Below, in pieces: positions 1,588 to 27,556 of a stretch of DNA of 32,235 nt. Below the pieces are notes generated by a model. It made no database searches. It was not told the DNA's origin and saw only the letters and a program-made list of their open reading frames with translations. The position numbers and the translations under genes are program-made. Source of the stretch: Acidobacteriota bacterium (GTDB lineage: Bacteria; Acidobacteriota; Terriglobia; UBA7540); contig PLWR01000504.1 of assembly GCA_003165615.1 (NCBI GenBank), positions 1 to 32,235 on the forward strand, written 5' to 3'. How positions within the stretch are numbered: the stretch's first letter is position 1; each line of letters starts with the position of its first letter.

Positions 1588-3963
1588 GTGAACCATCGAT
1601 TGCAAGTCGTTTCAGCACTCGTCGTTGTCGGCTCCTTGCTGATGGCGGGTACGGCGCTGCGAGCCGCGAACGGGAGTGTGAGTGGCCAAGTTACCGACCC
1701 GCAGGGAAAGCCTGTTGCAGATGCGAAGATTGCCGCCGTGCAAAAGCGCGATTCGCGCACTCAGGAGACCCGCAGCGATTCGGAAGGGCGGTTTGCCTTC
1801 TCCGCGCTTCCCGCCGGCGAGTACAAGTTCGTCGGAACAGCGCCCGGCTTTGTCAACGTCAGCCAGAAGATCAACCTGGCGGATGGCGAAGCGTCGATGG
1901 TCAATTTGCAGTTTGACCGGTTGGCTTCCCGCAACGAGACCGTCACGGTGACCGCGGACGTGAAGCAGGTTGATATCCTGTCGCCTGATCCCGCCGTGAA
2001 GGTTTTCGCCAGCGAGGACTTGCTGGATGCAAATCCGGGGCGTCCGGGCGCGCCGATTTCGATTCCCGGCTATCCGATTGAGACGGCATCGAGCGGCATC
2101 AAGGCACCGCAGTATTTTGCGCCGGGGGTAGCGGGTGACCACGGCGAGCCTATCGCGCAGTTCATCCAGGTGGGCACCTACCTGGTGCCCAACAACCTGT
2201 CAGCGAATGCGCACGGCAACGGGTACACCGATCCGAACATTTATATTGCGGATGTGATCGAGAGCGTTCAGGTGGATGGCGGCGCGTTCAACGTGCGCGA
2301 GGGCAATCACGCATTGAACCTGGCGACCACCTATTCCCTGCGCTCGCATCTCGGTCCGTTCTTCACCTTGACGGGAGACGACCGGGACATCACGGGCACG
2401 GCGGGCATGAGCCCTTCGAAGTATTCGTGGATCGCGATTGAGGGCTCGTTTGGCAATGGATTCCTGGACCGGCTGGAGCACCGCAAGCAGTCCAAGATCA
2501 ACGGCGGGCGGGTCTTCCACGCAGGAGATCACACACTGTCGTTGTTTGGAATCGGATACTACGGCTCCTCCTACGTGGCGGGACTACACCCGATTTACGG
2601 ATTCAATTCCGTCGATGCGGCCGACGGCTGGAAGGAGTACCCGGATACGATTGATCCCAGGCAGAAGGACCAGACGCACACGGCGCTGCTGGCGTTGAAC
2701 GATGTGTGGAGGCCGGGTGAAAACCAGGAGCTTCAGCTCTCGGGGTTCTTCCGCACCTACAACCTCTCTCTTTACTCCGACTTTGGGGTCGGGCTGATCC
2801 GGCAGAGCGAGTTCCGCACCGTAACCGGCGGCAGTGCGGCGTATAAGAAGAAGTTCTCGAAGAACTTCACGCTGCTGGCCGGGACGGACTACGAGCGCGA
2901 GGCGCCGCGGCGAGACGATCTGGACCATTACAACTTCTACAATCCCGCCGACCCGAATTACTACGGACCTTTCATCAAGGTGGACGGAAACAATGTAACC
3001 ATCGCTCCGGTAACGCCCTACATCGCCGGGGAGGGCGAGTTGAGCAAGTATTTTCGCTACTACCTGGGCTTGAGACGCGATGAGATTAGCATCGACAACC
3101 AGGACCTGGTGACTCCGGCCAATTCCTGGAACAAGTTGGTGGGGCTGAATTCGCCGAAAGCGACGTTAACGTTCTTTCCCGAGGAATCCTGGTGCGTTCC
3201 TCAGGTTGCCTTCAGCTTTGGCAAGTCGTTCTTCACGGAAGATCCGAGAACGGGGTCGGCCACGGGACAGGACACCGCAACCGGAGCACCGGCAGCCGTT
3301 GACCCGGTGGAGACGGCGCGCTCGTATCAGTTGGTCGCGAGCAAGACCTTCCACAAGACGGATCTGAAGCTGACACTGGGACACGAGACGCAAACCGCCG
3401 AGTACGGCAAGATCGACCCCGACGACGGATTGCAATTCGATCTGGGGCCGGGCCGCATACGCTATATGGCGGTTACGCTGCGCCAGAGCTTCATCCATGG
3501 ATCGCTGCAGGCGACCTTTGAGCAGGCCGATGCGCGTGATCTGGACACGGGTCTGATTACGCCGGAGGCTCCGAGATTGATCGGCGATCTTTCCTGGACG
3601 TATCAAAAACTGCCCTACCATTTGCAGGCAAAAGGCGAATTCGAGTACGTGGGAAGGAAGGTGGTGGGGAATGGCTGCGATGAGGCGAAGCCCAACGACC
3701 TGACCACCTACTGTCTCGGCGTGCCGAACCAGGAGCTCCGGCTGGCGCTGGCGCGGCCATTTCTTGAGGGAAGAATCAACGTCGGCCTGAACATGATGAT
3801 TGCCACGGGCTTTACCGGGCAAACCACGGAAAACTTCGCTACGAACTATCAACCGGGATACGTAGGTCCTTTACCGATTCCCGAAAACCCAATTGCGGAG
3901 GTCATTGGGGTGCGCATACCTTCGTACGCGAGCGTAAACTTTACCTACAGGTTTGGTCACTGA
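1588..3963 (+). CDS. TonB-dependent outer-membrane receptor with N-terminal carboxypeptidase-regulatory-like domain
   Basis: A 791-residue protein starting at GTG, with AGGAGA seven nt upstream. Residues 1-26 form a signal peptide (hydrophobic VVSALVVVGSLLMAGTA, cleavage near LRA-A). Residues about 29-112 form a CarboxypepD_reg-like beta-sandwich (GSVSGQVTDPQGKPV...AGEYKF). A plug-like region follows (about 130-250), then a beta-rich region to the C-terminus with alternating aromatic strands, ending YASVNFTYRFGH as an outer-membrane barrel would. The role would be TonB/ExbBD-energised uptake of a bulky substrate across the outer membrane. Two exported carbohydrate-active proteins lie downstream, beyond the toxin-antitoxin pair, so a glycan ligand is plausible but unproven. 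No TonB box was identified with confidence. Confidence 0.85.
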   Translation: MNHRLQVVSALVVVGSLLMAGTALRAANGSVSGQVTDPQGKPVADAKIAAVQKRDSRTQETRSDSEGRFAFSALPAGEYKFVGTAPGFVNVSQKINLADGEASMVNLQFDRLASRNETVTVTADVKQVDILSPDPAVKVFASEDLLDANPGRPGAPISIPGYPIETASSGIKAPQYFAPGVAGDHGEPIAQFIQVGTYLVPNNLSANAHGNGYTDPNIYIADVIESVQVDGGAFNVREGNHALNLATTYSLRSHLGPFFTLTGDDRDITGTAGMSPSKYSWIAIEGSFGNGFLDRLEHRKQSKINGGRVFHAGDHTLSLFGIGYYGSSYVAGLHPIYGFNSVDAADGWKEYPDTIDPRQKDQTHTALLALNDVWRPGENQELQLSGFFRTYNLSLYSDFGVGLIRQSEFRTVTGGSAAYKKKFSKNFTLLAGTDYEREAPRRDDLDHYNFYNPADPNYYGPFIKVDGNNVTIAPVTPYIAGEGELSKYFRYYLGLRRDEISIDNQDLVTPANSWNKLVGLNSPKATLTFFPEESWCVPQVAFSFGKSFFTEDPRTGSATGQDTATGAPAAVDPVETARSYQLVASKTFHKTDLKLTLGHETQTAEYGKIDPDDGLQFDLGPGRIRYMAVTLRQSFIHGSLQATFEQADARDLDTGLITPEAPRLIGDLSWTYQKLPYHLQAKGEFEYVGRKVVGNGCDEAKPNDLTTYCLGVPNQELRLALARPFLEGRINVGLNMMIATGFTGQTTENFATNYQPGYVGPLPIPENPIAEVIGVRIPSYASVNFTYRFGH

Positions 3964-4031
3964 GGTCGGGTTATTGGGCGATTTCGCGATTGAGTGATTG
4001 GATGATTTGATAAACAAGCCGGTGAATCGCC
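3961..4031 (+). repeat. Octamer-word element after the TonB receptor stop (weak right arm)
   Basis: Starting at the TGA stop, the sense strand reads as degenerate 8-bp words: GGGTTATT, GGGCGATT, TCGCGATT, GAGTGATT, GGATGATT. The word resembles the GGGTGATC word at 18004. Only a short complementary arm is visible: GGCGATT at 3977-3983 against AATCGCC at 4025-4031. It looks like a half-preserved member of the stop-codon hairpin family. Confidence 0.5.
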
Positions 4032-4063
4032 GAGTTGGATTCGTCCTTGCCCGCAACATTGCA

Positions 4064-4082
4064 AAATTGTACAATTTGTACA
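4064..4082 (+). promoter_or_regulatory. Probable autoregulatory operator of the toxin-antitoxin pair (two TGTACA boxes)
   Basis: A perfect 14-bp palindrome spans 4064-4077 with TGTACA at its centre (4068-4073). A second TGTACA lies at 4077-4082, nine bp on. The E. coli yefM-yoeB operator is known to use palindromes with TGTACA cores bound by YefM. Here the boxes end 14 nt before the antitoxin start, so bound antitoxin would block transcription or the ribosome site. The function is inferred from this motif match. Confidence 0.65.
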
Positions 4083-4096
4083 GAGGGATAAGTTAC

Positions 4097-4348
4097 ATGG
4101 CTCGACGACTCACTGCCAGCCAAGCACGAGCTTCTTTCGCCGAGGCAATTAATCGCGCCAGCTTCGCCGGCGAGCGCACCATCATTCGCCGGCACGGCAA
4201 GGATGTTGCCGCGGTCGTCTCAGCAGAAGACTTAAAGATTCTCGAAGCTTTGGAAGACCGGCGGGATTTGGAAGAGGCACGCCACATCATGAAAAAGCCC
4301 GGCCGCCTGGTCTCTTGGGAGAAGATCAAAAAGGACCTGGGACTTTAA
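4097..4348 (+). CDS. Type II antitoxin, Phd/YefM family
   Basis: An 83-residue antitoxin. The N-terminal half (RLTASQARASFAEAINRASFAGERTIIRRHGKDVAAVVSAED) has the Phd/YefM DNA-binding and dimerisation pattern: an alpha helix, then beta strands with 'I.RHGK.VAA.VS.ED'. The charged C-terminal part, ending WEKIKKDLGL, would wrap the toxin. The ATG at 4097 is chosen because AGAGGG lies about nine nt upstream and it starts right after the TGTACA operator boxes. The upstream in-frame extension would translate through the operator and is rejected. The toxin gene follows after 83 nt, unusually far for such pairs, which often overlap or nearly touch. The gap could allow separate control of the toxin. 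Confidence 0.85.
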   Translation: MARRLTASQARASFAEAINRASFAGERTIIRRHGKDVAAVVSAEDLKILEALEDRRDLEEARHIMKKPGRLVSWEKIKKDLGL

Positions 4349-4431
4349 GGTGACTCCCTCTCTTGAAATCTGCGGCGGCGCCCAGGCGCAATGAAAAGTG
4401 ACTATCGGGGTATGAATAGAGGAGAATTACA

Positions 4432-4689
4432 ATGCCCTATTCCATCCGATTTACCCCGCGTGCTCTGCGTGACCTCTCGGCTCTTGAAAGAACTGTCCAG
4501 CAGCGATTGCAGCGGCACATTGATCGATTAGGCGAAAACCCTTTCCCACCCGGCGCCAAGAAGCTTCATGCGGATGACCCATATTACCGAATCCGTGTGG
4601 GTGATTATCGAGTGATCTACCAAGTCGAAGCTCGCCAACTCATAATCATCGTGGTGAAAATCGGCCACCGCAGGGAAATTTATCGTTAG
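4432..4689 (+). CDS. Type II toxin, RelE/ParE superfamily
   Basis: An 85-residue basic protein with the RelE/ParE layout: MPYSIRFTPRALRDLSALE opening, a two-helix region (VQQRLQRHIDRLGENPF), then GAKKLHADDPYYRIRVGDYRVIYQVE and a terminal KIGHRREIYR. The paired strands 'YRIRVGDYRVIY' and 'VVKIGHRREIY' are typical of RelE-type mRNA interferases, in which basic residues plus a C-terminal Arg/Tyr act in ribosome-dependent cleavage. GGAG lies seven nt before the ATG. RelE-type endonuclease is favoured over a ParE gyrase poison because of the C-terminal GHRREIYR, but this is not decisive. It is partnered with the Phd/YefM antitoxin just upstream. Confidence 0.85.
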   Translation: MPYSIRFTPRALRDLSALERTVQQRLQRHIDRLGENPFPPGAKKLHADDPYYRIRVGDYRVIYQVEARQLIIIVVKIGHRREIYR

Positions 4690-4771: not shown

Positions 4772-6439
4772 TTGATTTTTTCATGCTATCGGAAGTGGCC
4801 GCGTCTGCACTTTTCAACCGCGCTGGTCACCGTTTTCCTGTTGGCCGCTATTCTACTCTCGGCGCGCCCGGCCGGAGCGGTCGAGTGGTCCACGCTTTTT
4901 ACCGCACAGGATGTGCGCGATCACCTGTCAACCGTGCAAGGCCGCCAGGAGGCGTTGGAATTCTGCCGCAAAATGGGCATCACCAAGGTCTACATTGAGA
5001 CTTTTCGCGACGGCTACCAGGCCGAAGAAGCCACACTCAAGGCGGCCCGCGATTTCTTTCGTCAGGCGGGCGTAAAGGTTTCCGGCTGCGTCACCACTAC
5101 GGGAATTGGCAAGCCTTCCACCGGCTGGCAAACTGCCGTCTGCTACACGCATCGCCAGAATCAGGAACGATTGGAGTCGATCTTTCGCTTTGCCGCCGCC
5201 CTGTTTGACGAAATCATGATGGACGACTTCTTTTTCACCGACTGCGAATGCTCGGAATGCGCGGCGGCGAAAGGTGGGCAAAGCTGGCAGCAATACCGCG
5301 AGAAGTTAATGCTGCAAATGAGCCGCGAGCGCATTGTGGGCCCCGCGCACGCCGTGAATCCCAACGTAAAAGTCATCATCAAGTTCCCCCAGTGGTACGA
5401 CCGTTTCCAGGAGCGCGGCTATGTGCCGGACGAAGAAGCGGCAATTTTCGACCGTATCTGGGTGGGCACGGAACTCCGTGATCCCGCATCCAATGAGTGG
5501 GGGAACAAGCAGCAGTACGAGGGCTACTTCATTTATCGCTGGCTCGCCGATTTGGGCGGACCCAAGACCGGCGGTGGCTGGTTTGACCCATTCGGCGCCA
5601 CGCCCGCGCTCTACCTCGATCAGCCGCTGACCACGATTCTGGCAGGTGCTCCCGAGGTTTTCCTCTTTCACTACGGCATGCTGATCTCGCCGGAATACCA
5701 GGCGCAGGCGGGAGCACTCGCGGCGCGGCGCGTCCAGTATGAAAAGCTCGCTACATTGGTATCGGGTTGGACGGGCATTGCCACCTACAAACCCGTCTCC
5801 AGCGATCCCGGCGAGGAAGCCTACGTTCTGGATGAGATCGGCATGTTGGGAATTCCCGAGGCCCCGACCGCGCATTTTCCCCAAGGCGCACCGGCCGTAA
5901 TCCTCACGACGCAGGCGCTGGGAGATGCTGAGCTTGTGCCCAAGCTTGTGCGTTTTCTCACCGCCGGCGGCACCGCCTTCATCAGCCAACCGCTCGCGCA
6001 CCGGCTTAACGGTGACCCGCGACTGCCCACCCCGGCCGCGCTCGACCTTGAAAAAGATCACTATGTGAAAACGCTCCAAGTTGGCGGTGGCAAGGTTGTG
6101 GTATTCTCTGACGCCTTACCGCACTTGGCGCACGTGGATGCGCAAAATCGCATCGAGCAACTTACGCCCGAGCTCCGCGACGCACTGGAAAATTTGCGCC
6201 GCCAGGTTGCGGATTTCACCGTCACCTCGCTTGACGCGCCTCCGCGGGTTGCCGTCTACCCGCTGGGTGGGCACGTCGCCGTGGTGAACTATTCGGAGCT
6301 GCCCGTTGCCTGCCGATTGACCGGACTCGCCGGCATGGCGCACAGATTAATTCGACTTTACGCCCTCGAAGGCGCCACGCTGGCATCCGATGGCGGAACG
6401 CTCCGGCTACCACCCCATTCCGCGCTGGTGGTGGAGTAG
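4772..6439 (+). CDS. Secreted glycosidase-like protein of unknown specificity (TIM-barrel-like)
   Basis: I recognise no named family with certainty. The product is 555 residues from a TTG start, chosen because AAAGGAG lies seven nt upstream and the protein then begins directly with a signal peptide (basic start, hydrophobic LVTVFLLAAILL, cleavage near AGA-V at residue 36). An ATG 66 nt earlier would put a charged extension before the signal. The body has alternating strand-helix units (GITKVYIETF; VKVSGCVTTTGIG; DEIMMDDFFFTDC). An Asp pair near residue 151 is followed by C-x-C-x-x-C (158-163), reminiscent of glycosidase-like barrels that carry a small metal site. Residues about 370-460 resemble a beta-galactosidase trimerisation/GATase-like domain. 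A short beta domain follows. It sits upstream of a GH106-like gene. Confidence 0.6.
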   Translation: MIFSCYRKWPRLHFSTALVTVFLLAAILLSARPAGAVEWSTLFTAQDVRDHLSTVQGRQEALEFCRKMGITKVYIETFRDGYQAEEATLKAARDFFRQAGVKVSGCVTTTGIGKPSTGWQTAVCYTHRQNQERLESIFRFAAALFDEIMMDDFFFTDCECSECAAAKGGQSWQQYREKLMLQMSRERIVGPAHAVNPNVKVIIKFPQWYDRFQERGYVPDEEAAIFDRIWVGTELRDPASNEWGNKQQYEGYFIYRWLADLGGPKTGGGWFDPFGATPALYLDQPLTTILAGAPEVFLFHYGMLISPEYQAQAGALAARRVQYEKLATLVSGWTGIATYKPVSSDPGEEAYVLDEIGMLGIPEAPTAHFPQGAPAVILTTQALGDAELVPKLVRFLTAGGTAFISQPLAHRLNGDPRLPTPAALDLEKDHYVKTLQVGGGKVVVFSDALPHLAHVDAQNRIEQLTPELRDALENLRRQVADFTVTSLDAPPRVAVYPLGGHVAVVNYSELPVACRLTGLAGMAHRLIRLYALEGATLASDGGTLRLPPHSALVVE

Positions 6440-6540
6440 GGAACTCGGGATTCGGGGCTCGGGAAGAACAGGGGGGAGCCGCGATTTCAACGGGGACAAT
6501 CAGGTTTGCGAGAAAATGCTCAGCCCCGCCGAAATCGCGG
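6437..6540 (+). repeat. Heptamer-word element at the stop codon of the secreted protein gene
   Basis: The TAG stop merges into G-rich words: GGGAACTC, GGGATTC, GGGGCTC, GGGAA. CGGGGCT (6453-6459) can pair with AGCCCCG (6522-6528), and a separate 10-bp inverted pair lies at 6479-6488 and 6531-6540. The four G-tracts with short loops also match a canonical G-quadruplex pattern on the mRNA strand. Confidence 0.5.
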
Positions 6541-10424: not shown

Positions 10425-10500
10425 GAGGCAGGTGGTAGATCGAATGAGGTATGTGGGTGGAAGGCCCCCACCTGCCACCTACGATCTACCACCTACCGCC
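10422..10500 (+). repeat. Heptamer-word hairpin (GGTGGTA) at the GH106 stop codon
   Basis: A perfect 13-bp inverted pair (10430-10442 and 10482-10494) is flanked by more degenerate words. The distal arm, read on the opposite strand, gives GGCGGTA, GGTGGTA, GATCGTA, GGTGGCA, GGTGGGG. The near arm gives GGAGGCA, GGTGGTA, GATCGAA, TGAGGTA. The TAG stop (10422-10424) abuts the first word. The rest of the gap to 10708 shows no gene and no clear promoter. Confidence 0.65.
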
Positions 10501-10708
10501 CCAAACCATCAAACCCCTTGGCAACCCTACGCCTTTTCTGGTAATCCTTATACACTGGGTGTGATGAGCAATCCTCAGGGGGCGCAGTAGCCGCAGGCCC
10601 GGCCATTGAATATGGTTGTCTGATTGTCCCTACGACCCACGTCGACAGGATGGGCTGGAAAGATCGGGAGTGGTTGCATATCTTCGGAAGCAGGAAGGGT
10701 GGCTTTCC

Positions 10709-11683: not shown

Positions 11684-11790
11684 AAGAGCAGGGATTAGGG
11701 GTTAGGGATTTTGGGGTGGGTTGCTCGATGCTGGGGATCAAGTGTTGGCTTTTCCCGAACCCCTAAGCCCTGACCCCTAAGCCCTAACAT
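11681..11790 (+). repeat. GGGNTTA heptamer-word hairpin inside the ABC gene block
   Basis: From the TGA stop the strand reads AAAGAGCAG and then the words GGGATTA, GGGGTTA, GGGATTT, TGGGG. The far arm (11754-11788), reverse-complemented, reads as the same word family: TTAGGGC, TTAGGGG, TCAGGGC, TTAGGGG. Pairing 11690-11713 with 11762-11785 gives 19 of 24 matches. It ends about 18 nt before the permease start. The near arm has four G-tracts of three or more with loops of 3-5 nt, a canonical G-quadruplex pattern. Confidence 0.7.
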
Positions 11791-15340: not shown

Positions 15341-15441
15341 AGAGCAGTGGCGAGTGACAAGCAACTGAAAAACGAAACTCGCCGCGATTTTCGAGTTTCG
15401 ATTTTCGAATTTCCGTCCTTGCTGGCCCGTCACTGCCCTTA
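15338..15441. repeat. Nested hairpin between convergent stops (bidirectional word element)
   Basis: Both convergent stops border it. The plus side reads TAA then AGAGCAGTGGCGAGTGAC, and the minus side reads TAA then GGGCAGTGACGGGCC, so GCAGTG (15344-15349) pairs with CACTGC (15431-15436). Inside, CGAAACTCG (15373-15381) and CGAGTTTCG (15392-15400) form a second 9-bp stem next to 7-bp words TTTTCGA, GTTTCGA, TTTTCGA, ATTTCCG. The plus-side lead-in AAAGAGCAG is identical to that at 11683. It may serve as a two-way terminator; that role is inferred. Confidence 0.6.
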
Positions 15442-16281: not shown

Positions 16282-16434
16282 TTCGGGGTTAGGGATTGGG
16301 GGTTGGGGGTTAGGGACTCGGCACAAGGTTCGATCTATGAAGGTCCATGGACTATGCGGAAGTCCACAGAGCGGACCCGAATCCCTAACTCCTAATCCCT
16401 AACCCCTGACTCCTAACCCCTAACCCCTGCTTTA
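16282..16434 (-). repeat. GGGNTTA heptamer-word hairpin between the two crotonase genes
   Basis: Reading the minus strand from the TAA stop at 16432-16434: AAGCAG, then GGGGTTA, GGGGTTA, GGAGTCA, GGGGTTA, GGGATTA, GGAGTTA, GGGATTC. The far arm on the plus strand (16284-16321) reads GGGGTTA, GGGATTG, GGGGTTG, GGGGTTA, GGGACTC. The arms are inverted copies with seven and five words. The loop includes the palindrome GTCCATGGAC (16342-16351). The word is the same as at 11690 although the flanking genes are unrelated. Confidence 0.7.
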
Positions 16435-17385: not shown

Positions 17386-17538
17386 GAATGACTCCGCTTC
17401 CCTGATTCCCAGGCGGGCTTAAAGCTCCCCGCATGATATGGATTGATGCTACCACAGCCAAATCCTGGGGGGTAGTGAACGGCAACTCCCTCGGGATTTG
17501 GGTAAACCTGCGCTATGATGGAAGTGTGAGGTGTTCTG

Positions 17539-18006
17539 ATGAATCCCCCCAAATACTGGTTTCTCATTCTGTTCTTACTGGTCATGGGTTGCGCCGGAAA
17601 GCAGCCCACCGAGTCCGTCTACGACGAGAAGGCGGATGCACACCGGGACGTTGCCGCGGCAATTACGAATGCCGAGGGGAGCAAAAGGAATGTTGTGCTC
17701 ATCTTTGGCGCTAACTGGTGCCCCGACTGCCGCGCGCTACATGCACAGATGCACAAGCCTGAGCTCGCTTCGATCATCGACAAGAATTTTGTCGTTGTCG
17801 AGATCGATCTGGGGCGCGAGGATAAAAACCTGGATTTGGCCGAGCATTATCATGTGCCCATCAAGCACGGAATCCCGGCCCTGGCAGTATTGGACTCGCA
17901 AGGGAAACTTCTGTTTGCAATGGAACAAGGGCAATTTGCCGACGCCCGCAACATGAGCTACGAAAGCATCAAAGCCTTTTTTGAGCAGTGGAAGCCAAGC
18001 CATTAA
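17539..18006 (+). CDS. Thioredoxin-like lipoprotein
   Basis: A 155-residue exported protein. Residues 1-18 form a lipoprotein signal with lipobox LVMGC (Cys18 would be lipidated). The thioredoxin fold follows, with the redox motif WCPDC at residues 60-64 inside VLIFGANWCPDCRALHAQM. The cis-Pro region is GIPALAVLDSQGKLLF, as in the thioredoxin_7/DUF255-like group. It probably works as a periplasm-facing thiol-disulfide protein, though the reductase partner is not visible here. GAGGTG lies upstream of the ATG. TATGAT at 17514-17519 could be its -10 element, with no good -35. Confidence 0.85.
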   Translation: MNPPKYWFLILFLLVMGCAGKQPTESVYDEKADAHRDVAAAITNAEGSKRNVVLIFGANWCPDCRALHAQMHKPELASIIDKNFVVVEIDLGREDKNLDLAEHYHVPIKHGIPALAVLDSQGKLLFAMEQGQFADARNMSYESIKAFFEQWKPSH

Positions 18007-18110
18007 TCGGGTGATCCGATGATCGGGTGATCGGGAGAACACGAAGTTTGCTTGGAGGATTTCCGCTCATCCGATCACCGGATCACCCGATCACCAGATC
18101 CCCCGATGAC
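18004..18110 (+). repeat. GGGTGATC octamer-word hairpin at the thioredoxin-like gene stop
   Basis: The clearest member of the family. The near arm reads as 8-bp words GATCCGAT, GATCGGGT, GATCGGGA directly behind the TAA stop. The far arm, reverse-complemented, reads GATCTGGT, GATCGGGT, GATCCGGT, GATCGGAT. Pairing 18006-18038 with 18075-18107 gives 28 of 33 matches with a 36-nt loop. No U-run follows, so it is not a classical intrinsic terminator. The TPR gene promoter starts 2 nt later. Confidence 0.75.
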
Positions 18111-18111
18111 C

Positions 18112-18140: not shown

Positions 18141-18167
18141 GGCGATTCAACTAACGAAGAAGGATCA

Positions 18168-18818: not shown

Positions 18819-18890
18819 GTGCTGGGTACCGGGTTCTGGGGGCTGGGGAAGAACCCAGAATCCAGTACCTAGCCCCCAGTCCCTGGGTTC
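18814..18890 (+). repeat. NCTGGGT heptamer-word hairpin containing the TPR gene stop codon
   Basis: The near arm (18814-18836) and far arm (18851-18873) pair at 18 of 23 positions with a 14-nt loop, and the TAG stop (18816-18818) lies inside the stem. The words are TGCTGGG, TACCGGG, TTCTGGG, GGCTGGG; the far arm read in reverse gives GGCTAGG, TACTGGA, TTCTGGG. Four G-tracts with loops of 2-4 nt also give a canonical G-quadruplex motif on the mRNA strand. Confidence 0.7.
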
Positions 18891-18928
18891 CAGGCATCCC
18901 TCCGGGGGGAAAGGCCGTCTGACCTCTT

Positions 18929-20231: not shown

Positions 20232-20240
20232 CAAGCCTCC

Positions 20241-20362
20241 GGCGCACCACACAAGATGAAAATGCTCCCCTCCTTGACAAGGAGGGGCCGGGGGTGGTTG
20301 ACCTGCGATTCCGTGCCCACCAACCCCTAACCCCCTCCTCAGCCGAGGAGGGGAGCAATTTT
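20241..20362. repeat. CTCCCCTCC-type intergenic hairpin
   Basis: Outer arms GAAAATGCTCCCCTCCT (20258-20274) and AGGAGGGGAGCAATTTTC (20346-20363) are near-perfect inverted copies. Inner parts include CCTTGACAAGG with flanking GGAGGGG, and GGGGGTGGTTG against CAACCCCTAACCCCC. This GGGGTGGTTG-type repeat occurs in many phyla. It differs from the word hairpins: its C-rich arm comes first and it starts about 25 nt after the stop. Confidence 0.65.
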
Positions 20363-20379
20363 CATGGCTGAAATCTTTA

Positions 20380-20407
20380 TTGACAAAGCGGCAAGTGTCC
20401 CTATAAT
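20380..20407 (+). promoter_or_regulatory. Near-consensus sigma-70 promoter of thiD
   Basis: TTGACA (20380-20385) and TATAAT (20402-20407) are both perfect consensus hexamers, with a 16-bp spacer. Transcription would start near 20414, giving a leader of about 36 nt that contains AAAGGAGAG. No TPP riboswitch core is present in this short leader. Confidence 0.8.
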
Positions 20408-20449
20408 CGGCAAGAGTTTCACCCAACTCAGGCGAACGCAAAGGAGAGA

Positions 20450-21301
20450 ATGCATCAGAGCATCAGCACGGCTTGGCCCGTGGTTCTCAGTGTCGCCGGA
20501 TTTGATCCCTCGGCCGGCGCCGGAATCATGGCCGACCTCAAGACTTTCGCGGCGCATAATTGTTATGGTGTCGCGGCCATCACCGCTTTGACTGTCCAGA
20601 ACACTCAGGGGGTGGCATCCGTCCACCCGGTTGACCCAACGGTGCTGAGAGAGTCAATCCTGTCCCTTCTTTCCGACGGCCGGGTAAAAGCCCTCAAGCT
20701 TGGAATGCTCTGTAACCAGTCCATCGCTGAAGTCGTTCGCGAGATTCTGGAGTCAAATCCCGATCTTCCTGCCGTGCTCGATCCCATCGTGCGCTCTTCC
20801 AATAATTATGACCTGTTGAACGCGGCGGCCCTGGACTTCATCCGGCGGCGATTGCTCTCCCGCGTGGCGGTGGTGACACCGAACCTGGCGGAAGCAGCGG
20901 CGCTGGCTGAAATCCCCGTCGATAGTCTCGACAGTATGAAGGCTGCGGCGCGCAAATTGGTTGAGTTGGGTGCGCGCGCCGTGGTGGTGACCGGTGGGCA
21001 CCTCGAGAAGGCCATCGACGTTTTCTTTGATGGGACGACGATGGAAGCTTTCGCCGGTGACCGCATCAAACCGGACAACACCCACGGTACCGGTTGCACA
21101 TTTTCCTCCGCCGTTGCCGCCAATCTCGCCCTCGGACGCCAGTTGCGCGATGCGGTGGTGATGGCCAAGGCCTATGTGGTGGAAGCCATTCGCCAGGCCT
21201 TCCCCGTGGGGCCCGGCCGCATTCCGTTAAACCACCTCTACCGCATGACCCAACCTGCCCGCGTCACGGACCACTCCCCCGCCGCTGAAACTGCGCACTA
21301 A
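20450..21301 (+). CDS. thiD: Hydroxymethylpyrimidine/phosphomethylpyrimidine kinase
   Basis: A 283-residue cytoplasmic kinase that phosphorylates HMP and HMP-P in thiamine diphosphate synthesis. The ribokinase-like fold shows VLSVAGFDPSAGAGIMADLKTF at the N-terminus and YGVAAITALTVQNTQGV. KLGMLCN and LDPIV follow, then TPNLAEAAAL. VVTGGHL precedes the anion-hole and catalytic motif DNTHGTGCTFSSAVAANLALG. All the usual ThiD landmarks are present and the length fits a stand-alone ThiD without a ThiE fusion. AAAGGAGAG precedes the ATG. No other thiamine genes are adjacent. It converges on the Ntn-hydrolase gene with a gap of 34 bp. Confidence 0.95.
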   Translation: MHQSISTAWPVVLSVAGFDPSAGAGIMADLKTFAAHNCYGVAAITALTVQNTQGVASVHPVDPTVLRESILSLLSDGRVKALKLGMLCNQSIAEVVREILESNPDLPAVLDPIVRSSNNYDLLNAAALDFIRRRLLSRVAVVTPNLAEAAALAEIPVDSLDSMKAAARKLVELGARAVVVTGGHLEKAIDVFFDGTTMEAFAGDRIKPDNTHGTGCTFSSAVAANLALGRQLRDAVVMAKAYVVEAIRQAFPVGPGRIPLNHLYRMTQPARVTDHSPAAETAH

Positions 21302-21335
21302 CCCGGATTTCTCTGTCCAAGTTTGGAAAGGCTGT

Positions 21336-22772
21336 CTAAGGATTCGGGGCAGCTCGCCCAGGCTGCGGCGCGATGGAGAAGGTGGTCCAGGGATAGGCAT
21401 CCATGTCGCGCAAGAGGGCTTTTTCCCAGGAAAATCCAGAATGTTGACGCAAGTATTCGACGGCCTTGAAGCTGAGGCCGCACGCGTGCCCAGCCGCCGC
21501 AGTAAAGGACATGTGTTCGGCCATGGTGGCGTCCGCGACTTTGTTCTGCACGGCGCCCGCCGCCCCGTACGGCGGCTGCCACGGCATCGCCCCGCGGGGC
21601 GAAAGATCAATGTGGCCGCAGAGAGAGCGCTCGTCCGCGTCTTCTTTCTTTTCGAATGTGTCATAGTGGTCGGCTAGGAAACCCTGCGCGGCGGCCACAT
21701 CAATCTTCCCCTTGTACTGCGCCATCAACTGTTCCCAGCGGACGTGCCGGGCGTTGGCGCTGTCCGCCATATCCGTGACATCGAAGTCGGTTTCCTCCTT
21801 TACCAGCTTGGGGTCGGAGGGAAAATTTGAACCCACAAAATAGCCGTCCGAGGTGCGCAGCAGCGTGGCGTTCTTGAGTCCCAGTTCGAGGCTCGCGATT
21901 TCATTGGTCTTACGATCGGCCACCAGCCAGTTGTTGGCGTAGCCGCCGTTGTTCCCCTCCTTCATGATGTGCGCGAAATCATCGATGGAGGCGGCATATT
22001 GCATGGCCTTGCGCGCCCGGATAAATTCCGGGATACCGCTGGGATCGTAACCCGAAAAGTGCGAAATGGTGGTTTCGGTAATCATGATCCCGGCAGAGTT
22101 GATGCCAAAATCGTCGCCACTGTGAATGGCGCCGGGGAAGCCATCCATCAGCATGTGCTGGCCGCTTGCCGGTGCGATATCGAAAATGATGGTCCAACGC
22201 GCGCCGTCCAGATAACTGGTCCAATCGTTGTGGGCGATGATGACCTTGCCATCCTTCGTGTAACTACCCGTGGCCACGAAGGCGCTGCATCGCTCCGGCA
22301 AAGCCAGCGCGGCGGAGGTGCTGGCGAGATGCTGCTTATCATATTCCTTTACGTAGTAGCCCCATTCGCAGAAGGCATTGAGCGCTACCACATCCCAAAG
22401 GTCCAGTTTTACACCCTTCGCCCGCAAACCCTCGCTGATGCCTTGCAGCTCCTCGCGATACTCCGATTCGATGTGCGGCCACATCATGTCGCGCGCGGCA
22501 TTGCGGAAAAACTTCCAATCCTGGTTGCTCTCGCGAGTCTTCTCCAGGGCCACCACTCTTTCCGCGTGCAGAATCTCCGGGGCCAAAAGGTATCCGTGCT
22601 GGAACCCAATATTGAAAGGCGTCCCCTCCAGATGCACGAAAATCCAACCATTCTGCGCGGGCTGGCGGAAGGCTCCCTGCATATTCGCATCGAGGTTGGC
22701 CTGTTTGGAAAACAGGGGCAGAGCGGCAGCGATAAGAGCAACGCTTGCCAGGAGAAGGGCAAAACGGCGCAT
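21336..22772 (-). CDS. Secreted Ntn-hydrolase, phospholipase B-like / acyl-transferase C45-like
   Basis: A 478-residue protein with a cleavable signal peptide (RRFALLLASVALIAAALPLFS). The segment EGTPFNIGFQHGYLLAPEI is typical of phospholipase B-like and C45 peptidase/acyl-CoA:6-APA acyltransferase relatives. The likely N-terminal nucleophile is Cys162 in ERCSAFVATGSYTKDGKVIIAHNDW, which such enzymes expose by self-cleavage. The downstream GAIHSGDDFGINSAGIMITETTIS and GGYANNWLVADRKTNEIASLELG fit the same fold. Amide or acyl-ester hydrolysis in the periplasm or outside is likely, substrate unknown. GGAGG lies 8 nt before the ATG. It is divergent from the LarA-like gene and convergent with thiD. 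Confidence 0.78.
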   Translation of the reverse strand: MRRFALLLASVALIAAALPLFSKQANLDANMQGAFRQPAQNGWIFVHLEGTPFNIGFQHGYLLAPEILHAERVVALEKTRESNQDWKFFRNAARDMMWPHIESEYREELQGISEGLRAKGVKLDLWDVVALNAFCEWGYYVKEYDKQHLASTSAALALPERCSAFVATGSYTKDGKVIIAHNDWTSYLDGARWTIIFDIAPASGQHMLMDGFPGAIHSGDDFGINSAGIMITETTISHFSGYDPSGIPEFIRARKAMQYAASIDDFAHIMKEGNNGGYANNWLVADRKTNEIASLELGLKNATLLRTSDGYFVGSNFPSDPKLVKEETDFDVTDMADSANARHVRWEQLMAQYKGKIDVAAAQGFLADHYDTFEKKEDADERSLCGHIDLSPRGAMPWQPPYGAAGAVQNKVADATMAEHMSFTAAAGHACGLSFKAVEYLRQHSGFSWEKALLRDMDAYPWTTFSIAPQPGRAAPNP

Positions 22773-22871
22773 TCAGGCCTCCAAAGGCATCGTCTTCCTT
22801 TAGGGATATCCCTGAGTGACGATGGGGGTAATGGCAATTATACACGAACAGACACCGGCCACCCTTCGCGA

Positions 22872-22877
22872 TACAAT
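22872..22877 (+). promoter_or_regulatory. -10 box placing the LarA-like transcript start at its ATG
   Basis: TACAAT lies with its last base six nt before the ATG, so transcription should begin at or next to the start codon. CAGACA, 17 bp further up, is a weak -35. There is no Shine-Dalgarno sequence between the box and the ATG. Together this suggests a leaderless mRNA. Confidence 0.5.
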
Positions 22878-22883
22878 AACACT

Positions 22884-24215
22884 ATGAAGGTTAACTTTGC
22901 TTTTGGTCGAACGGGTTTGCCCCTCGAATTACCTGAGGGTTTTGATTACCGCGTGTTGGAAGCGCGGTCGGCGGTTCCGCTGGATGACGCGGCGGCGGCC
23001 ATCAAGCGAGCGCTCGATACACCCATCGGTTGCCCACTGCTGATCGAGATGGCCCGAGGCAAGCGCTCTGCGGCAATCTCGGTTTGCGACATCACGCGGC
23101 CCGCGCCCAACCGGGAAGTACTTCCTCCGGTGCTGGCCCGCTTGGAAGCGGCCGGAATTCCCCGCGAAGGCATCACCATCCTGATCGCCACGGGGCTTCA
23201 CCGTCCGGCCACGGAGGCGGAGTTGCGCGAGATCTGCGGGGAAGAGACTGCCAGCCGTTATCGCGTTGTCAATCACCACGCACGCGAACTTTCCGAGCAT
23301 CGCGCCCTGGGAAAGACCGCCGCCGGAACCCCTGTATATATTGACGACCGCTTTGTTTCCGCCGACCTCCACATCACTTTGGGATTCATTGAGCCGCACT
23401 TGATGCTGGGCTATTCCGGCGGACGCAAGCTCATCGCTCCCGGCCTCGCCGCGCAGGAGACCATCAAGGTCCTGCACAGCCCGCGTTTCATGCGCGATCC
23501 GCGGGCGGCCGAGGGCTCAATTGAGGACAACCCCCTGCCCCGAGAACTTTTGGAAATCGCGCACATGGCCCGGCACGATTTTCTGGTGGATGTGGCGCTG
23601 GGCCGCGGCACTCCCCGCCGCCCCATCGCCGCGGTATTTGCCGGCGACTCCGTGGCCGCGCATCGGCGAGGAGTGGAGTTTGTCTCGCGCGTCATGCTGG
23701 AAACGCTCGACCAGCCTGTCGATGCGGTGATAACGACTTCCGCCGGCTACCCACTCGATTTGACCTTCTATCAGGCCGTGAAGGGAATTACCGCCGCATC
23801 ACACATCGTGAAGCCTGGCGGCAAGATCCTGTTGCTCGCGGCCTGCCAGGAAGGAGTAGGCGGACCGGAGTTTGCCCGCATGCTTGCCGAGGGATTACCC
23901 GATCATGTTTTTATGAAGAAAATCGAGGGAGTGCCGGTGACGGTGGACCAGTGGCAACTCGAAAAGCTTGCCATGGTCACTGCCCACATGGAAGTTTTAT
24001 ATTACGTGCCGGGCCTGCCGCGTGAATTCCACTCCGCCCTCTGGGGGAAATCCTACGCGAGCGCAGAAGAAGCCATCCGCGCACTCACCGGAACATTGGA
24101 AAGAAACGCGCGAATCGCCGTCATTCCCGAAGGGCCGTACGTCTTGGCGCGATCGGCTGCGATGGAAAATGCAACCTCTGAAGCCCTGCCGCCCCCTATG
24201 AGCTTCCAAGCGTAG
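22884..24215 (+). CDS. LarA-family nickel-pincer racemase/epimerase homologue
   Basis: A 443-residue protein. The residues that hold and use the nickel-pincer nucleotide cofactor in Lactiplantibacillus LarA (His108, His174, Lys184, His200) appear here at His106, His172, Lys182 and His198, all shifted by exactly two, in ATGLHRPAT, GFIEPHLMLGYSGGRKLIAPG and KVLHSP. It should therefore bind the cofactor and act on a 2-hydroxyacid, although LarA homologues differ in substrate. The cofactor genes larB, larC and larE are not in the window. The start at 22884 opens the conserved domain; a much longer in-frame reading frame upstream crosses the opposite-strand hydrolase gene and is not coding. A leaderless start is likely. 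Confidence 0.85.
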   Translation: MKVNFAFGRTGLPLELPEGFDYRVLEARSAVPLDDAAAAIKRALDTPIGCPLLIEMARGKRSAAISVCDITRPAPNREVLPPVLARLEAAGIPREGITILIATGLHRPATEAELREICGEETASRYRVVNHHARELSEHRALGKTAAGTPVYIDDRFVSADLHITLGFIEPHLMLGYSGGRKLIAPGLAAQETIKVLHSPRFMRDPRAAEGSIEDNPLPRELLEIAHMARHDFLVDVALGRGTPRRPIAAVFAGDSVAAHRRGVEFVSRVMLETLDQPVDAVITTSAGYPLDLTFYQAVKGITAASHIVKPGGKILLLAACQEGVGGPEFARMLAEGLPDHVFMKKIEGVPVTVDQWQLEKLAMVTAHMEVLYYVPGLPREFHSALWGKSYASAEEAIRALTGTLERNARIAVIPEGPYVLARSAAMENATSEALPPPMSFQA

Positions 24216-24228
24216 TGAGAGATCCGGC

Positions 24229-25365
24229 CTAAACCCCAACTTGCCGGCACGCCGCTGACCACTGGCGAAGCTTTTGGGCCGTGGAATGGAGGAAACTGGT
24301 GATTTCCGCGGGACACCAGGCGGGCAAATGGCCGATGGCCTCGGCCTCCAGGAATTCCGCCAACTCCAGAACTCTTTCCGGCATCGTGCGGCTGGTGGGT
24401 TTGAACGATTCGCGCAGAATCTCCAGCAGCCAGTCCGTAAGGATCATCCCCCAGAATTCATAGCGAAGGTCATCGACGTAGTTGTGGGGATTGCGCCGGT
24501 GCTCCACCAGGGGGCGCCCAAAGGCCACGTGATACTTTGTGCCCTGCATCAAGGCCAGTAGGAAGTAACCTCCCCAGATGTCGCCGTAGCGATCCAGCTT
24601 GCCGCCGGGAACCGGCCAGGCCATGGTGACAAACACAAAGGCCGGAATCAACTCCCGCACCACGCTGGTATTCTGCGTGTTCACCGGAGACCATGTCGAC
24701 TGGTCGAGGACGAACGCATCCGGACCTCGATAGTCCACTCCCTTAACCTTGCCATTGAGCCAAGTGGTGGCGTCAACGTCCGGCTCATCGAACCATAATC
24801 CTTCCGTGACCCCGATGGCAGCCCCTTCCGGACAAGGCGCCTGCTGCGGTTGATTCATTTGGCCGCGGAGCTGAAAGGGAAACCCTCGCGGAAACACCAG
24901 GCGAGAGGGTTTGAAGACCAGGTATTCACAGATATTGTGAAATTGCTTTTCCTCTTTCAGCACCGGTTGACGCCATGCCTGCCCCGTCCGGCGGTGAAAG
25001 CCCACAAAGTCGTCCTGTGTGGGAAAATTATCGTCGTCGATGGAAATGAGCAATTCGCACCCATCTGCCAGCGCCCGCAAATAGCCGAACACCCTTCTGC
25101 CGTCGGTGTTGTAAGGGATTAGAGGGTAGAGCGCGAATTGTTTGCCCCACTCATCCTGGTCATCCACGCCAAAATAAATGGTCTCCAGACCCTGCGCGGA
25201 AATCTCCGCGGCAAGGGCCGCGGCGCTGGGCGGAGTCTTGCGGTCCCCCACTACCCACACCTTCACCTCCTCCAGGCGGCCGTGGCGGTGTATGTTCTCG
25301 TACAGGTCGCGCAGAATCGCGGGGTGGTGGATTGTGGTGAAGACAATGTGGCAAGGCTTGTTCAC
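24229..25365 (-). CDS. GT-A glycosyltransferase resembling GT75 (reversibly glycosylated polypeptide) / STELLO
   Basis: A 378-residue protein starting at GTG behind GGGAG. The N-terminal half has a Rossmann-like nucleotide-sugar fold: HIVFTTIHHP, VKVWVVGDRKTP, and DGCELLISIDDDNFP with an Asp triad at 110-112 for metal and UDP-sugar binding. Later conserved-looking parts are VFPRGFPFQLRGQ, AFVFVTMAWPVPGGKLDRYGDIWGGYFLLAL and HRRNPHNYVDDLRYE. The DDD motif and the later 'K..RYGDIWGG' resemble plant UDP-arabinopyranose mutase/RGP proteins (GT75) and STELLO-like transferases. It closes a minus-strand glycosyltransferase block. The final stop is 13 bp from the convergent LarA-like stop. The donor sugar is unknown. 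Confidence 0.68.
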   Translation of the reverse strand: MNKPCHIVFTTIHHPAILRDLYENIHRHGRLEEVKVWVVGDRKTPPSAAALAAEISAQGLETIYFGVDDQDEWGKQFALYPLIPYNTDGRRVFGYLRALADGCELLISIDDDNFPTQDDFVGFHRRTGQAWRQPVLKEEKQFHNICEYLVFKPSRLVFPRGFPFQLRGQMNQPQQAPCPEGAAIGVTEGLWFDEPDVDATTWLNGKVKGVDYRGPDAFVLDQSTWSPVNTQNTSVVRELIPAFVFVTMAWPVPGGKLDRYGDIWGGYFLLALMQGTKYHVAFGRPLVEHRRNPHNYVDDLRYEFWGMILTDWLLEILRESFKPTSRTMPERVLELAEFLEAEAIGHLPAWCPAEITSFLHSTAQKLRQWSAACRQVGV

Positions 25366-25382
25366 GCGCTCACTCCCATTCT

Positions 25383-25463
25383 AAGTTACAGGTGACAGGA
25401 GACAGGGAACAGGGCACAGCGAACAGTAAAAGCTTTTCTCGATCACCTATCACCTGTCACCTA
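25383..25463 (-). repeat. CAGGTGA heptamer-word hairpin containing the GT2 stop codon
   Basis: On the plus strand 25389-25425 reads CAGGTGA, CAGGAGA, CAGGGAA, CAGGGCA, CAGCGAA. The minus-strand arm next to the gene reads AGGTGACAGGTGATAGGTGA, in which the first TGA is the glycosyltransferase stop codon. A perfect 10-bp stem pairs 25390-25399 with 25453-25462. AAAAGCTTTT lies in the loop. The element fills nearly the whole gap to the next start. Confidence 0.7.
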
Positions 25464-26197
25464 GTGCTACGGACCGGCGTCAGGAAAACCCTGAGCCCCA
25501 GCTTCACGTAACGGAAGTTCTTGAAAAAAGTATTGACGCTTGTACCTTCTTTTCTGCCGACCCAAACGGTGGGGACCTGTTCCAGATGATAGCCCTTCTT
25601 GAGGGGCTTTACGGTGGTCTCAATGCAGATTTCGTGCGTGGTGCCGTCCCACTCGATGGCCTCCGCCACTTCTTTGCTAAGAAGCTTTAAACCGAACGTG
25701 AAGTCACCAATGCGGGTCCAGAACAACACCCGGAAGGCCTTTTGAAAAATCCAGTTGAGGACAAGTTTCAAAGTGTCGTAGTTGGTGAATCCGCCCCCCG
25801 GCAGCCAGCGGTTGGCAATGACCTCATCGCAGCCTGTTTCCTCGACCTTTCGCACCATGCGATCGATGGCGGCGGGCTCTGTTTCCAAATCCCCAGCCAT
25901 CAGCGCTACGTAGTTTCCCTTTGCCGCTTCCATCCCTTCGCGATAGGCCCAGCCAATGCCGGGATTGTTTTTCTGCACCACCAATTTCACCCGCGGTTCC
26001 TGCGCCTCCCACTTCCGGCAAATGGAGAAAGTCTCCTCGGAAGCCCGGGGCGACGTGAGCAGGAGGATCTCCTGGATGTATCCGCGATCGTTGCCTAAAA
26101 GGATCTTGATGGTCTCGTCGATCGAAAACGTCTCCGAGAACACCGTGACCACGATGGAAAGCTTGATGGCGCTGAGCGGCACACTTTTTTGCGTCAT
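25457..26197 (-). CDS. Family 2 glycosyltransferase
   Basis: A 246-residue GT-A fold enzyme: KLSIVVTVFSE, VKLVVQKNNPGIGWAYREGMEAAKGNYVALMAGDLETEP (Asp103-x-Glu105 as metal-binding motif) and later VIANRWLPGGGF. It resembles polyprenyl-phosphate sugar transferases but lacks C-terminal membrane helices apart from one weak stretch (LVLNWIFQKAFRVLFW). It lies 36 nt behind the GT2-GtrA gene and is probably cotranscribed with it. The ribosome site is weak. Its stop codon is embedded in a repeat word, so the last residues (TR) are encoded by the element. Confidence 0.85.
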   Translation of the reverse strand: MTQKSVPLSAIKLSIVVTVFSETFSIDETIKILLGNDRGYIQEILLLTSPRASEETFSICRKWEAQEPRVKLVVQKNNPGIGWAYREGMEAAKGNYVALMAGDLETEPAAIDRMVRKVEETGCDEVIANRWLPGGGFTNYDTLKLVLNWIFQKAFRVLFWTRIGDFTFGLKLLSKEVAEAIEWDGTTHEICIETTVKPLKKGYHLEQVPTVWVGRKEGTSVNTFFKNFRYVKLGLRVFLTPVRSTR

Positions 26198-26233
26198 GGA
26201 GAGTCCGGTTCTGCTTGAATTCTTTCGCCAGGG

Positions 26234-27355
26234 TCAAACCTTCGCCGAGGACGCCCCATCCGCCGGGCGGCTTGCCCACGTCTTCCAGATGGCCGGAACA
26301 TTCATGATAAAGTTCATCGCGCCACCCGAAACAACGCCCGCCGCTGCCGCGCTCAGAATTCCTGCACCCTGCCCCATCCACAAGAGCGTGACCAGGAAAT
26401 TGAGGAAGGCGCCGGTTAAGCAAATCCCTTCGTACCGCCCCAATCTGCTCCAGACGCCGGGGCGAAACGCGGGCGCTTCGGCGGATCGAAAGGTGAAAGC
26501 TTCGCTGCAAACGAAGTTGCTCAGCAATGCGGCCTGAATAGCCACCGGTAATGCGGCATACGGCGGCCACGCCTCTTTCTTCACCAGGGTTGCGAAGAGA
26601 GCGATATCGATGAAGGCGCCGGTAAACGCCACCAGCCCGTAGCAGATCCAGCTCAGGAATTGGCCCGTCCCCACGGCCAGCCGCACCAGGTGCTGAAGAT
26701 ACTCCACATACTGGCGCGGACCCAGCTTGGAAGCGCCGCGTTCACGTTCCTGAAAAACGTAGGGCACTTCTACCAATTTGTTATAATGCGCCTTGGCAAT
26801 AACTTCCAGGAGAATCTTGTAACCCAGCGGGTTCAAGTGAGCGTCGCGCAGGGCGGAAGATCGAACCATGAATATCCCGGACATGGGGTCGCTGACCGCC
26901 GCCAGCTTGAGGGGCAGCACGGTGGCCGCCATGTGGGTTGCGGTGCGCGAAATAAGGCGGCGCATCCACGTCCAATCCGAAGTGCCCCCGCCGGGCACGT
27001 AGCGGCTCCCAATCGCCAGGTCCGCTCCCTGATGAATCGCGGCCGCGAGCGCCGTGAGCGTCTCGGGAGGATGCTGGAGGTCTGCGTCCATCACTCCCAA
27101 CACATCCCCCTTGGCCGATGCCCATCCGTCGAGCACAGCCGTGGCCAGCCCCAACCGCCCCGGGCGCCGCAGGACACGCGCGGGGACTTCGGAGGCAAGC
27201 AATTCCACGCGTTCTGCCGTTCCATCCGCGCTCTCGTCATCTACCACAATGAGTTCGAAATCTTCGCCCGCGGTCCGCAATGCCGCCGCTGCGCGCCGAA
27301 GAGTTTCCTCGATGACCGGTGCTTCGTTGTACGTAGGAATGATGACCGAAATCAT
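26234..27355 (-). CDS. Polyprenyl-phosphate glycosyltransferase (GT2) fused to GtrA domain
   Basis: A 373-residue inner-membrane enzyme, probably loading a sugar onto a polyprenyl phosphate carrier. The GT2 domain (1-220) has MISVIIPTYNEAPVIEETL, LIVVDDESADGT, GVMDADLQHPPE (Asp90, Asp92) and the dolichol-phosphate-mannose-synthase-like IGSRYVPGG. The C-terminal GtrA-like part (about 240-365) has four hydrophobic segments (WICYGLVAFTGAFIDIALFATLV, ALPVAIQAALLSNFVCSEAFTF, LTGAFLNFLVTLLWM, AAAGVVSGGAMNFIMNV) and could flip the lipid-linked sugar. The ATG at 27355 opens the conserved domain; upstream codons run into repeat words. No clear Shine-Dalgarno is seen, because the hairpin arm ends about 3 nt before the ATG. 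Confidence 0.88.
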   Translation of the reverse strand: MISVIIPTYNEAPVIEETLRRAAAALRTAGEDFELIVVDDESADGTAERVELLASEVPARVLRRPGRLGLATAVLDGWASAKGDVLGVMDADLQHPPETLTALAAAIHQGADLAIGSRYVPGGGTSDWTWMRRLISRTATHMAATVLPLKLAAVSDPMSGIFMVRSSALRDAHLNPLGYKILLEVIAKAHYNKLVEVPYVFQERERGASKLGPRQYVEYLQHLVRLAVGTGQFLSWICYGLVAFTGAFIDIALFATLVKKEAWPPYAALPVAIQAALLSNFVCSEAFTFRSAEAPAFRPGVWSRLGRYEGICLTGAFLNFLVTLLWMGQGAGILSAAAAGVVSGGAMNFIMNVPAIWKTWASRPADGASSAKV

Positions 27356-27359
27356 AATG

Positions 27360-27556
27360 AGGTGCCAAGTGTCAGGTGCCAGGGACCAGGGGCTGGGTTC
27401 TCGGTGTTGGGTGCTGGACGCTGGAAACCATGATTGGAGAGTTATAAAGGATAAAGGGTAAAGCGTAAAGGGTAAAGTATGGAACCGTCTCCCCTTTGCA
27501 CTTTTATCCTTCACCCATTATCCTCTACCCTTTAAACTTTAAGTACCTGACACCTA
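27360..27556 (-). repeat. Composite nested word hairpin (AGGTGCC outside, GGGTAAA inside)
   Basis: The outer stem pairs GTGTCAGGT (27369-27377) with ACCTGACAC (27545-27553), which abuts the alpha-galactosidase TAG stop (27554-27556). The plus strand continues with words AGGGACC, AGGGGCT, GGTGTTG, GGTGCTG, GACGCTG. Inside lie the words GGATAAA, GGGTAAA, GCGTAAA, GGGTAAA (27449-27476). They face a reverse-complement arm at 27496-27540 that reads GGGTAGA, GGATAAT, GGGTGAA, GGATAAA. About 26 of 33 inner positions match. The element fills the gap between the two genes. Confidence 0.7.

Follow-up and report, generated by a model that had tools for sequence, protein, structure and literature searches.

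The sequence examined here, the 32,235-nt contig PLWR01000504.1 of assembly GCA_003165615.1 (hereafter the window), comes from Acidobacteriota: the nearest relatives of its GldG-like protein lie in metagenome-assembled genomes (MAGs) of that phylum, the closest being G001 (L001) and G002 (L002). According to Pfam its genes are ordinary ones and include a GH106-like protein, a Gld-type ABC transporter operon, two enoyl-CoA hydratases, a thioredoxin-like protein, a TPR protein, and glycosyltransferases; Rfam at gathering cut-offs returned no match. Genes were called with a small script of our own, which misses short ones, and of the 21 intervals separating the 22 genes called, 10 hold tandem arrays of degenerate 7- or 8-nt words behind a stop codon, most of them arranged as hairpins with a G-rich arm (G-arm) and a C-rich inverted arm (C-arm). 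The three divergent intervals in this gene list, short genes again aside, contain no such locus. The ten loci are listed below, with z giving RNA folding relative to 200 shuffles.

3964..4011, plus strand: G-rich 8-mer array of GATTGAGT-like words, directly after the stop at 3961-3963; single arm with no inverted partner; z -1.48.
6440..6464, plus strand: G-rich heptamer array of CGGGATT-like words, directly after the stop at 6437-6439; single arm with no inverted partner; z -1.20.
10425..10498, plus strand: hairpin of GGTGGYA-like words after the stop at 10422-10424, G-arm first; z -6.03; an orthologous hairpin occurs in L001.
11684..11790, plus strand: hairpin of GGGATTA-like words between the ABC ATPase and permease genes (G-arm 11690-11710, C-arm 11754-11788); z -4.85; relatives use other words.
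15341..15438, no strand assigned: nested hairpin between convergent genes, outer words AGTGACA-like and inner words CGAAACT-like; z -3.65; both words also occur in L002.
16282..16431, minus strand: hairpin of GGGGTTA-like words between the two hydratase genes, with the stop at 16432-16434 (minus), G-arm 16376-16428, and C-arm 16282-16324; z -6.64; site empty in G004, G005, G009, and G007.
18006..18111, plus strand: 8-mer hairpin built from GATCGGGT, which takes in the final letter of the stop at 18004-18006 (G-arm 18006-18038, C-arm 18062-18111); z -4.91; G004, G005, and G009 have overlapping genes instead.
18819..18887, plus strand: 69-nt hairpin of GGGTTCT-like words directly after the stop at 18816-18818; z -3.31; site empty in G003, G004, G005, G006, G009, and G011.
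25385..25463, minus strand: hairpin of ACAGGTG-like words (G-arm 25442-25463, C-arm 25385-25426) with the stop at 25457-25459 (minus) inside the G-arm, where the local word opens with this TGA; z -4.85; G006 and G009 have overlapping genes instead.
27360..27553, minus strand: compound hairpin after the stop at 27554-27556 (minus), with inner TAAAGGG-like arms at 27485-27542 and 27444-27477 and outer AGGTGTC-like tracts; z -1.94 for 27405-27553.

One layout is filled by many unrelated words: period, strand, place after the stop, and arm pairing stay constant. Inspection by eye shows, at all ten loci and on both DNA strands, a periodic tract rich in purines or G that starts 0 to about 7 nt after the stop on the coding strand. 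The pattern described in the earlier note on this DNA is for the most part real; its periodicity holds up and is largely confined to spacers. In 383 kb comprising 20 stretches of G001, the window, and L001, segments matching themselves at a lag of 7 nt numbered 59 in 91.7 kb of intergenic sequence versus 4 in 291 kb of coding sequence, and a single Markov shuffle of the intergenic sequence gave none, which rules out chance periodicity. Lag 8 is a minor component (4 intergenic segments, 0 coding), the remaining lags from 4 to 13 gave 0 to 5 intergenic segments, and lag 14 is a harmonic. Across 649 kb of G001 there were 111 lag-7 and 7 lag-8 arms, and with only 9 of these 118 inside called genes the arrays cannot be regarded as a gene-internal feature.

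Arms are also placed at particular ends of the spacer. In co-directional spacers of G001, 23 of 42 G-arms start 15 nt or less after the stop, compared with a mean of 6.45 and a maximum of 13 when arms were placed at random in the same spacers (200 draws); toward the other end, 18 of 36 C-arms finish no more than 25 nt before the next start (random mean 9.2, maximum 16; 200 draws). Where such a spacer has both arms, the order is G then C in 14 cases and C then G in 2 (of 16), and at the same threshold 12 spacers carry a lone G-arm and 10 a lone C-arm. Among G001 spacers of at least 25 nt, an arm is present in 46 (of 254) where the neighboring genes are co-directional, 19 (of 53) where they converge, and 9 (of 63) where they diverge; the densities per kb of spacer are, in this order, 1.07, 1.16, and 0.47. 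The stop anchoring seen at all ten window loci and the position of the G-rich arm next to the stop on the coding strand, whichever DNA strand that is, thus extend to a relative, and so does the broader idea of one design filled by differing sequences, since G001 likewise combines many words with stop anchoring and a leading G-arm.

Pairing between arms was assessed in several ways. In co-directional G001 spacers of 50-500 nt, 35 of the 39 with a G-arm were testable (4 had too little sequence left), and 23 of these 35 G-arms outscored all 100 shuffles of the remaining spacer sequence. Opposite-facing neighbor arms within 350 nt share a word (at >=0.7) in 15 of 27 cases, versus 4.1% of cross-locus pairs. 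At 7 of the 10 window loci, none of 200 shuffles folded as well as the native RNA (z -3.31 to -6.64), whereas the arrays at 3961 and 6437 lack an inverted arm of the same word and fold no better than chance; for 27360-27556, 6 of 200 shuffles did as well as the 149-nt piece folded, which lacks part of the outer C-arm. Directly 3' of the one-armed array at 3961 lies a Phd/YefM-type antitoxin and ParE-type toxin pair (3998-4689), and an insertion there could have removed a second arm.

The arms had further been described as matching in register. Of 48 arm pairs whose best identity reached 0.6, 46 were measured; identity was 0.80 in the best register, 0.76 in the next-best register of the same phase, and 0.26 off-phase. 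The in-register match is present but mostly reflects the shared word. In 14 of 46 same-locus pairs the two arms agreed in unit order more than column shuffles did (p <= 0.05), but so did the arms of 60 of 400 cross-locus pairs (drawn from 1795), which leaves a modest excess that does not prove the arms to be copies. Stems with different words, counted over 181 clusters of up to 700 nt, were nested in 4 cases, serial in 5, and crossing in 0, too few for a claim; single examples of nested hairpins are found at 15341-15438 in the window, 11222-11420 in L062, and 12830-13122 in L060.

The words are both numerous and recurrent. Linking a set of 124 arms (21-60 nt) at 0.8 gave 13 families, ranging from 14 down to 2 arms, with the rest single, and 72 consensus words occur among the listed arms. 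Of the cross-locus pairs among 141 heptamer arms of G001 (21-56 nt), 1.77% agree at >=0.8 along 21 nt or more, compared with 0.15-0.26% for Markov words and 0.13-0.16% for position-permuted words. The earlier note had called the words locus-specific; strictly they are not, since the same words recur at unrelated loci. Sharing extends beyond G001: the proportion of pairs sharing a word with it is 1.70% for the window and 1.36% for G011, versus 1.85% within G001. For the distant G055, pair sharing with G001 is 0.81% versus 0.21% after permutation, yet a G001 word is matched by just 5 of its 15 arms where 5.2 are expected, the count having been made without the arms of a 139-bp tandem array (L170, 2000-2600). 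Sharing between G085 and G001 equals the permuted level (0.32% in both), and in G003, represented by two arms, 0 of 314 pairs share a word with G001. The tandem array in G055 spans L170 2054-2528 as four copies of a 138/139-bp unit with TTTTGGA-like heptamers.

Beyond the words, the clusters have little in common: with arms masked, loops and flanks gave 16 matches among 127 clusters, in a few groups that resemble other repeats, and no common ends were seen. Provision of stop codons in all frames was rejected as the words' purpose, since the G strand is not enriched in stop triplets (0.0602 per nt versus 0.0651 in permuted words). Steps from pyrimidine to purine (YR) are less frequent in the words than after permutation (0.201 versus 0.242), but a purine-run grammar is not claimed, since the main departures (low TA, high AA and TT) also mark the intergenic background.

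At orthologous sites, words are replaced. In a tree of the permease and GldG-like protein (rooted at the midpoint for drawing only), the window groups with G001, G002, G004, G005, G006, and G009 (support 100/97); G003 and G007 come next, and G011 lies farther out. By eye, the ABC ATPase site uses GGGATTA in the window, GGGACAA in G001, GGGATTC in G002, and CGAAACT-like words in G004, G005, G006, and G009, with no words in G003, G007, or G011. The site behind the second hydratase gene (hydratase 2) carries GGGGTTA in the window, AGTGATG in G001, GGGATAC in G002, and GGGATTC in G003. Some sites keep their word, ACAGGTG following the glycosyltransferase in both the window and G001. To compare pairing within and between genomes, 18 of 34 spacers were kept (at least 80 nt, lag score at least 7). 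Pairing of first halves with their own second halves summed to 525, whereas pairing with orthologous second halves permuted within sites gave a mean of 409.9 and a maximum of 521 in 5000 permutations (p = 0.0002); 15 of the 18 filled spacers, from five sites, pair above their own cross mean. Both arms change word together at orthologous sites, and the paired layout persists at a site more than the word does.

Several sites are empty in relatives. On the 3' side of the TPR gene, the window has the stop, the 69-nt hairpin, and TTCCAGGCATCC, and G004 and G006 have the stop followed by TTCCCAGGCATCC; the hairpin is also missing from G003, G005, G009, and G011, and no TPR match was found in G007. 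Arrays fill the hydratase 2 site in the window, G001, G002, and G003. The same site is unfilled in G004, G005, and G009, with 18 to 21 nt from stop to start, and in G007, with 42 nt; G011 has no array there, and no match was found in G006. At the junction of the thioredoxin-like and TPR genes, an array is present in the window, G001 (where it is weak), and G002, and the genes overlap in the hairpin-less G004, G005, and G009; at the junction of the glycosyltransferase-like pair, the window and G001 have an array and the genes overlap in the hairpin-less G006 and G009. Array-bearing spacers at these two junctions measure 94 to 190 nt. Since the ATPase, hydratase, and TPR sites all lack an array in G011, which falls outside the window's tree group, the simplest reading is that the hairpins at these three sites were gained within the window's group, although they may instead have been lost elsewhere. 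Empty and filled sites, together with concerted word change, amount to natural experiments that make hairpin birth and turnover testable. As a separate observation, a promoter-like TTGACG-17-TAGACT (18112-18140) follows the hairpin at 18004, with similar letters after the hairpin in G001 and G002 and overlapping genes in the relatives without it.

Distribution among relatives is patchy. Lag-7 segments were found in 12 of the 33 relatives sampled and in none of the other 21; apart from G001 the samples covered 5 to 54 kb, and some of these segments may be genic. In the longer samples, the frequency per 100 kb was 8.2 in G055, 7.2 in G085, and 17.4 in G011.

Heptamer repeats were noted in bacterial spacers long ago, and the kind seen here is already known. 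Rehm et al. (2015) described intergenic degenerate heptamers with a single consensus word per genome, GGGAATC in Xanthomonas and GGGGA(C/T)T in Nostoc, and a G-quadruplex (G4) was proposed for both (PMC4692102). In Xanthomonas they occur as inverted pairs that converge. Soon after the stop the G-rich strand is the coding strand, and C-rich repeats precede the next open reading frame (PMC4692102). Few lie between divergent genes and about four units are commonest; transcript starts and stops in Xanthomonas (Xac) were more frequent at G4-forming repeats than at controls, and the functional role, according to the authors, remains to be elucidated (PMC4692102). Our arrays resemble those repeats in being tandem heptamers of mostly intergenic location, in having the G-strand as coding strand after the stop and C-rich arms before the next gene (both above all 200 placements), in their convergent inverted pairs, in their lower density between divergent genes, and in their commonest length of about four units. 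They differ in that 72 consensus words, in 13 families plus single ones, take the place of one word, and in that most arms cannot form G4s.

Two other comparisons bear on the earlier note, which knew of no named family with an inverted, stop-anchored form and took the cyanobacterial short tandemly repeated repetitive (STRR) sequences for plain tandem arrays. The Xanthomonas pairs behind stops correct the first statement; as to the second, 7-bp STRR hairpins are said to be not unusual in filamentous cyanobacteria (PMC2670836). For one such hairpin its authors judged termination likelier, leaving the function unsettled (PMC2670836). As described there for Nostoc, STRR sequences share with the present arrays a 7-bp tandem unit able to form hairpins between or behind genes, here in another phylum. 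Intergenic heptamer arrays common to distant phyla also include the TAACTGA direct repeats of marine Beggiatoaceae, which consist of one word, lie mostly just upstream of start codons, and comprise 169 direct sets and one indirect repeat (PMC4679880). Unlike the TAACTGA repeats, the arrays here have a hairpin design and are anchored at stops, not starts. Repetitive extragenic palindromic (REP) sequences and BIMEs are small extragenic hairpins, and REPs are copies of a conserved palindrome. The hairpins described here differ from these and from MITE-like palindromes in sharing only the word. In the open-licence literature we found no report of such repeats in Acidobacteria/Acidobacteriota, which does not prove that none exists. 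The new part is the use of many interchangeable words.

We favor, with about an even chance of being right, the explanation that these are heptamer and octamer hairpins of the Xanthomonas/STRR kind, amplified in some Acidobacteriota with roughly a dozen words through slippage and inverted copying, turning over fast, and transcribed as spacer stems. An array would grow by 7-nt slippage in the ribosome-free stretch after a stop, template switching would yield the inverted copy, and copying between paired arms, or selection for pairing, would hold both arms to one word while that word drifts or is replaced. The transcribed stem would fill the spacer from the stop to the next Shine-Dalgarno site, and its likeliest effect would be to separate neighboring genes or to slow 3' decay. 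The strand rule may stem from transcription, RNA after the stop being ribosome-free and purine-rich RNA favoring RNA-DNA hybrids; alternatively, it may come from selection against exposed C-rich, Rho-accessible RNA. Several points weigh against this explanation. By the shuffle test, 12 of 35 G-arms lack a partner (though the locus at 18814 is among the 12 only because array detection spanned both its arms). Words recur at unrelated loci at about nine times the null levels, which plain local slippage does not predict. The retention of arm pairing despite array turnover may mean selection, and the transcript ends enriched at G4-forming repeats in Rehm et al. suggest some termination (PMC4692102).

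A rival view is that the stems are selected RNA elements, kept as intercistronic insulators or 3'-end protectors, with pairing selected and the word left free. This is possible, if clearly less probable: joint rewording of both arms, strong folding at seven window loci, and the position between stop and next start would fit it, but several relatives have empty sites, some with overlapping genes, single arms occur, and mismatches compatible with G-U pairing on the coding-strand RNA show no clear excess (28 versus 20 in the opposite class). A process might instead write hairpins after stops from shared words and overwrite both arms of an existing hairpin at once; it would be self-templating and would spread words between loci without a conserved element of its own. 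We consider this unlikely, and the joint rewording of arms is compatible with the self-templating role raised in the earlier note without proving it. A mobile or self-copying element, by which hairpins or words are copied between loci, landing after stops and displacing older hairpins, is quite unlikely. Recurrence above the nulls, sharing among G001, the window, and G011 at about the level within G001, empty and filled sites, and different words at orthologous sites would agree with it; however, loops and flanks are rarely shared, common ends are not seen, and the distant G055 matches G001 words only at the expected number of arms. The mobile-repeat role suggested earlier is thus weak.

Intrinsic terminators with unusual stems have very little probability as a general role. 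Hairpins do lie directly after stops and also between convergent genes, and transcript ends are enriched at the similar Xac repeats (PMC4692102), a counterpoint joined by the termination favored for one STRR hairpin in PMC2670836. Nevertheless, terminator-like sites in the window (10400-27600) are at background (19 versus 20.6 in shuffles, sd 5.0), no T-run is seen by eye behind the stems, some hairpins lie inside evident operons (ATPase-permease, 11683-11806), and co-directional density is close to convergent density; the terminator role was therefore rejected in general. Least probable of all is that the arrays are G4 elements, the role put forward for the repeats of Xanthomonas and Nostoc. 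Some words (GGGATTA, GGGACTC) contain G-tracts, and the commonest arm length is about four units (71 of 191 arms, a count shaped by the detection threshold), but a four-tract G4 motif occurs in only 17 of 191 G001 arms and 4 of 16 window arms, and 85 of the 191 lack any GGG. This refutes G4s as a common denominator, although a G4 at a single locus is possible. Because one layout is filled by many words, word sequence, G4s, and a word-specific binding protein are all unlikely as the common cause.

A few other repeats and promoter-like sequences were seen nearby. A perfect (12/12) sigma-70-type promoter (TTGACA, 16 nt, TATAAT) lies at 20380-20407 of the window, upstream of a thiD-like gene. In G001, a promoter-like flank of about 40 nt is common to four loci (L043 5268, L045 4268, L150 258, and L167 ~19650), where it adjoins arrays of different words. 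The ATCGCCGGATGCACCTT repeat family recurs at a spacing of ~150-175 bp in L048 (15895, 16049, 16223) and L063 (minus strand; 14181, 14347, 14514), mostly followed by heptamer-like AGAAGYC tracts. At L054 4563-4667, perfect 29/29 inverted arms of period 8 form part of a C-rich palindrome, similar to sequence in L002 near 4570-4660, that looks like a separate repeat family. Finally, nine sampled G001 contigs (L048, L049, L067, L151, L154, L158, L161, and others) carry TTTCGCAGTAAACTACCGCTA at or close to their ends, with unrelated sequence after it; it is probably an insertion-sequence terminus at which the assembly breaks.

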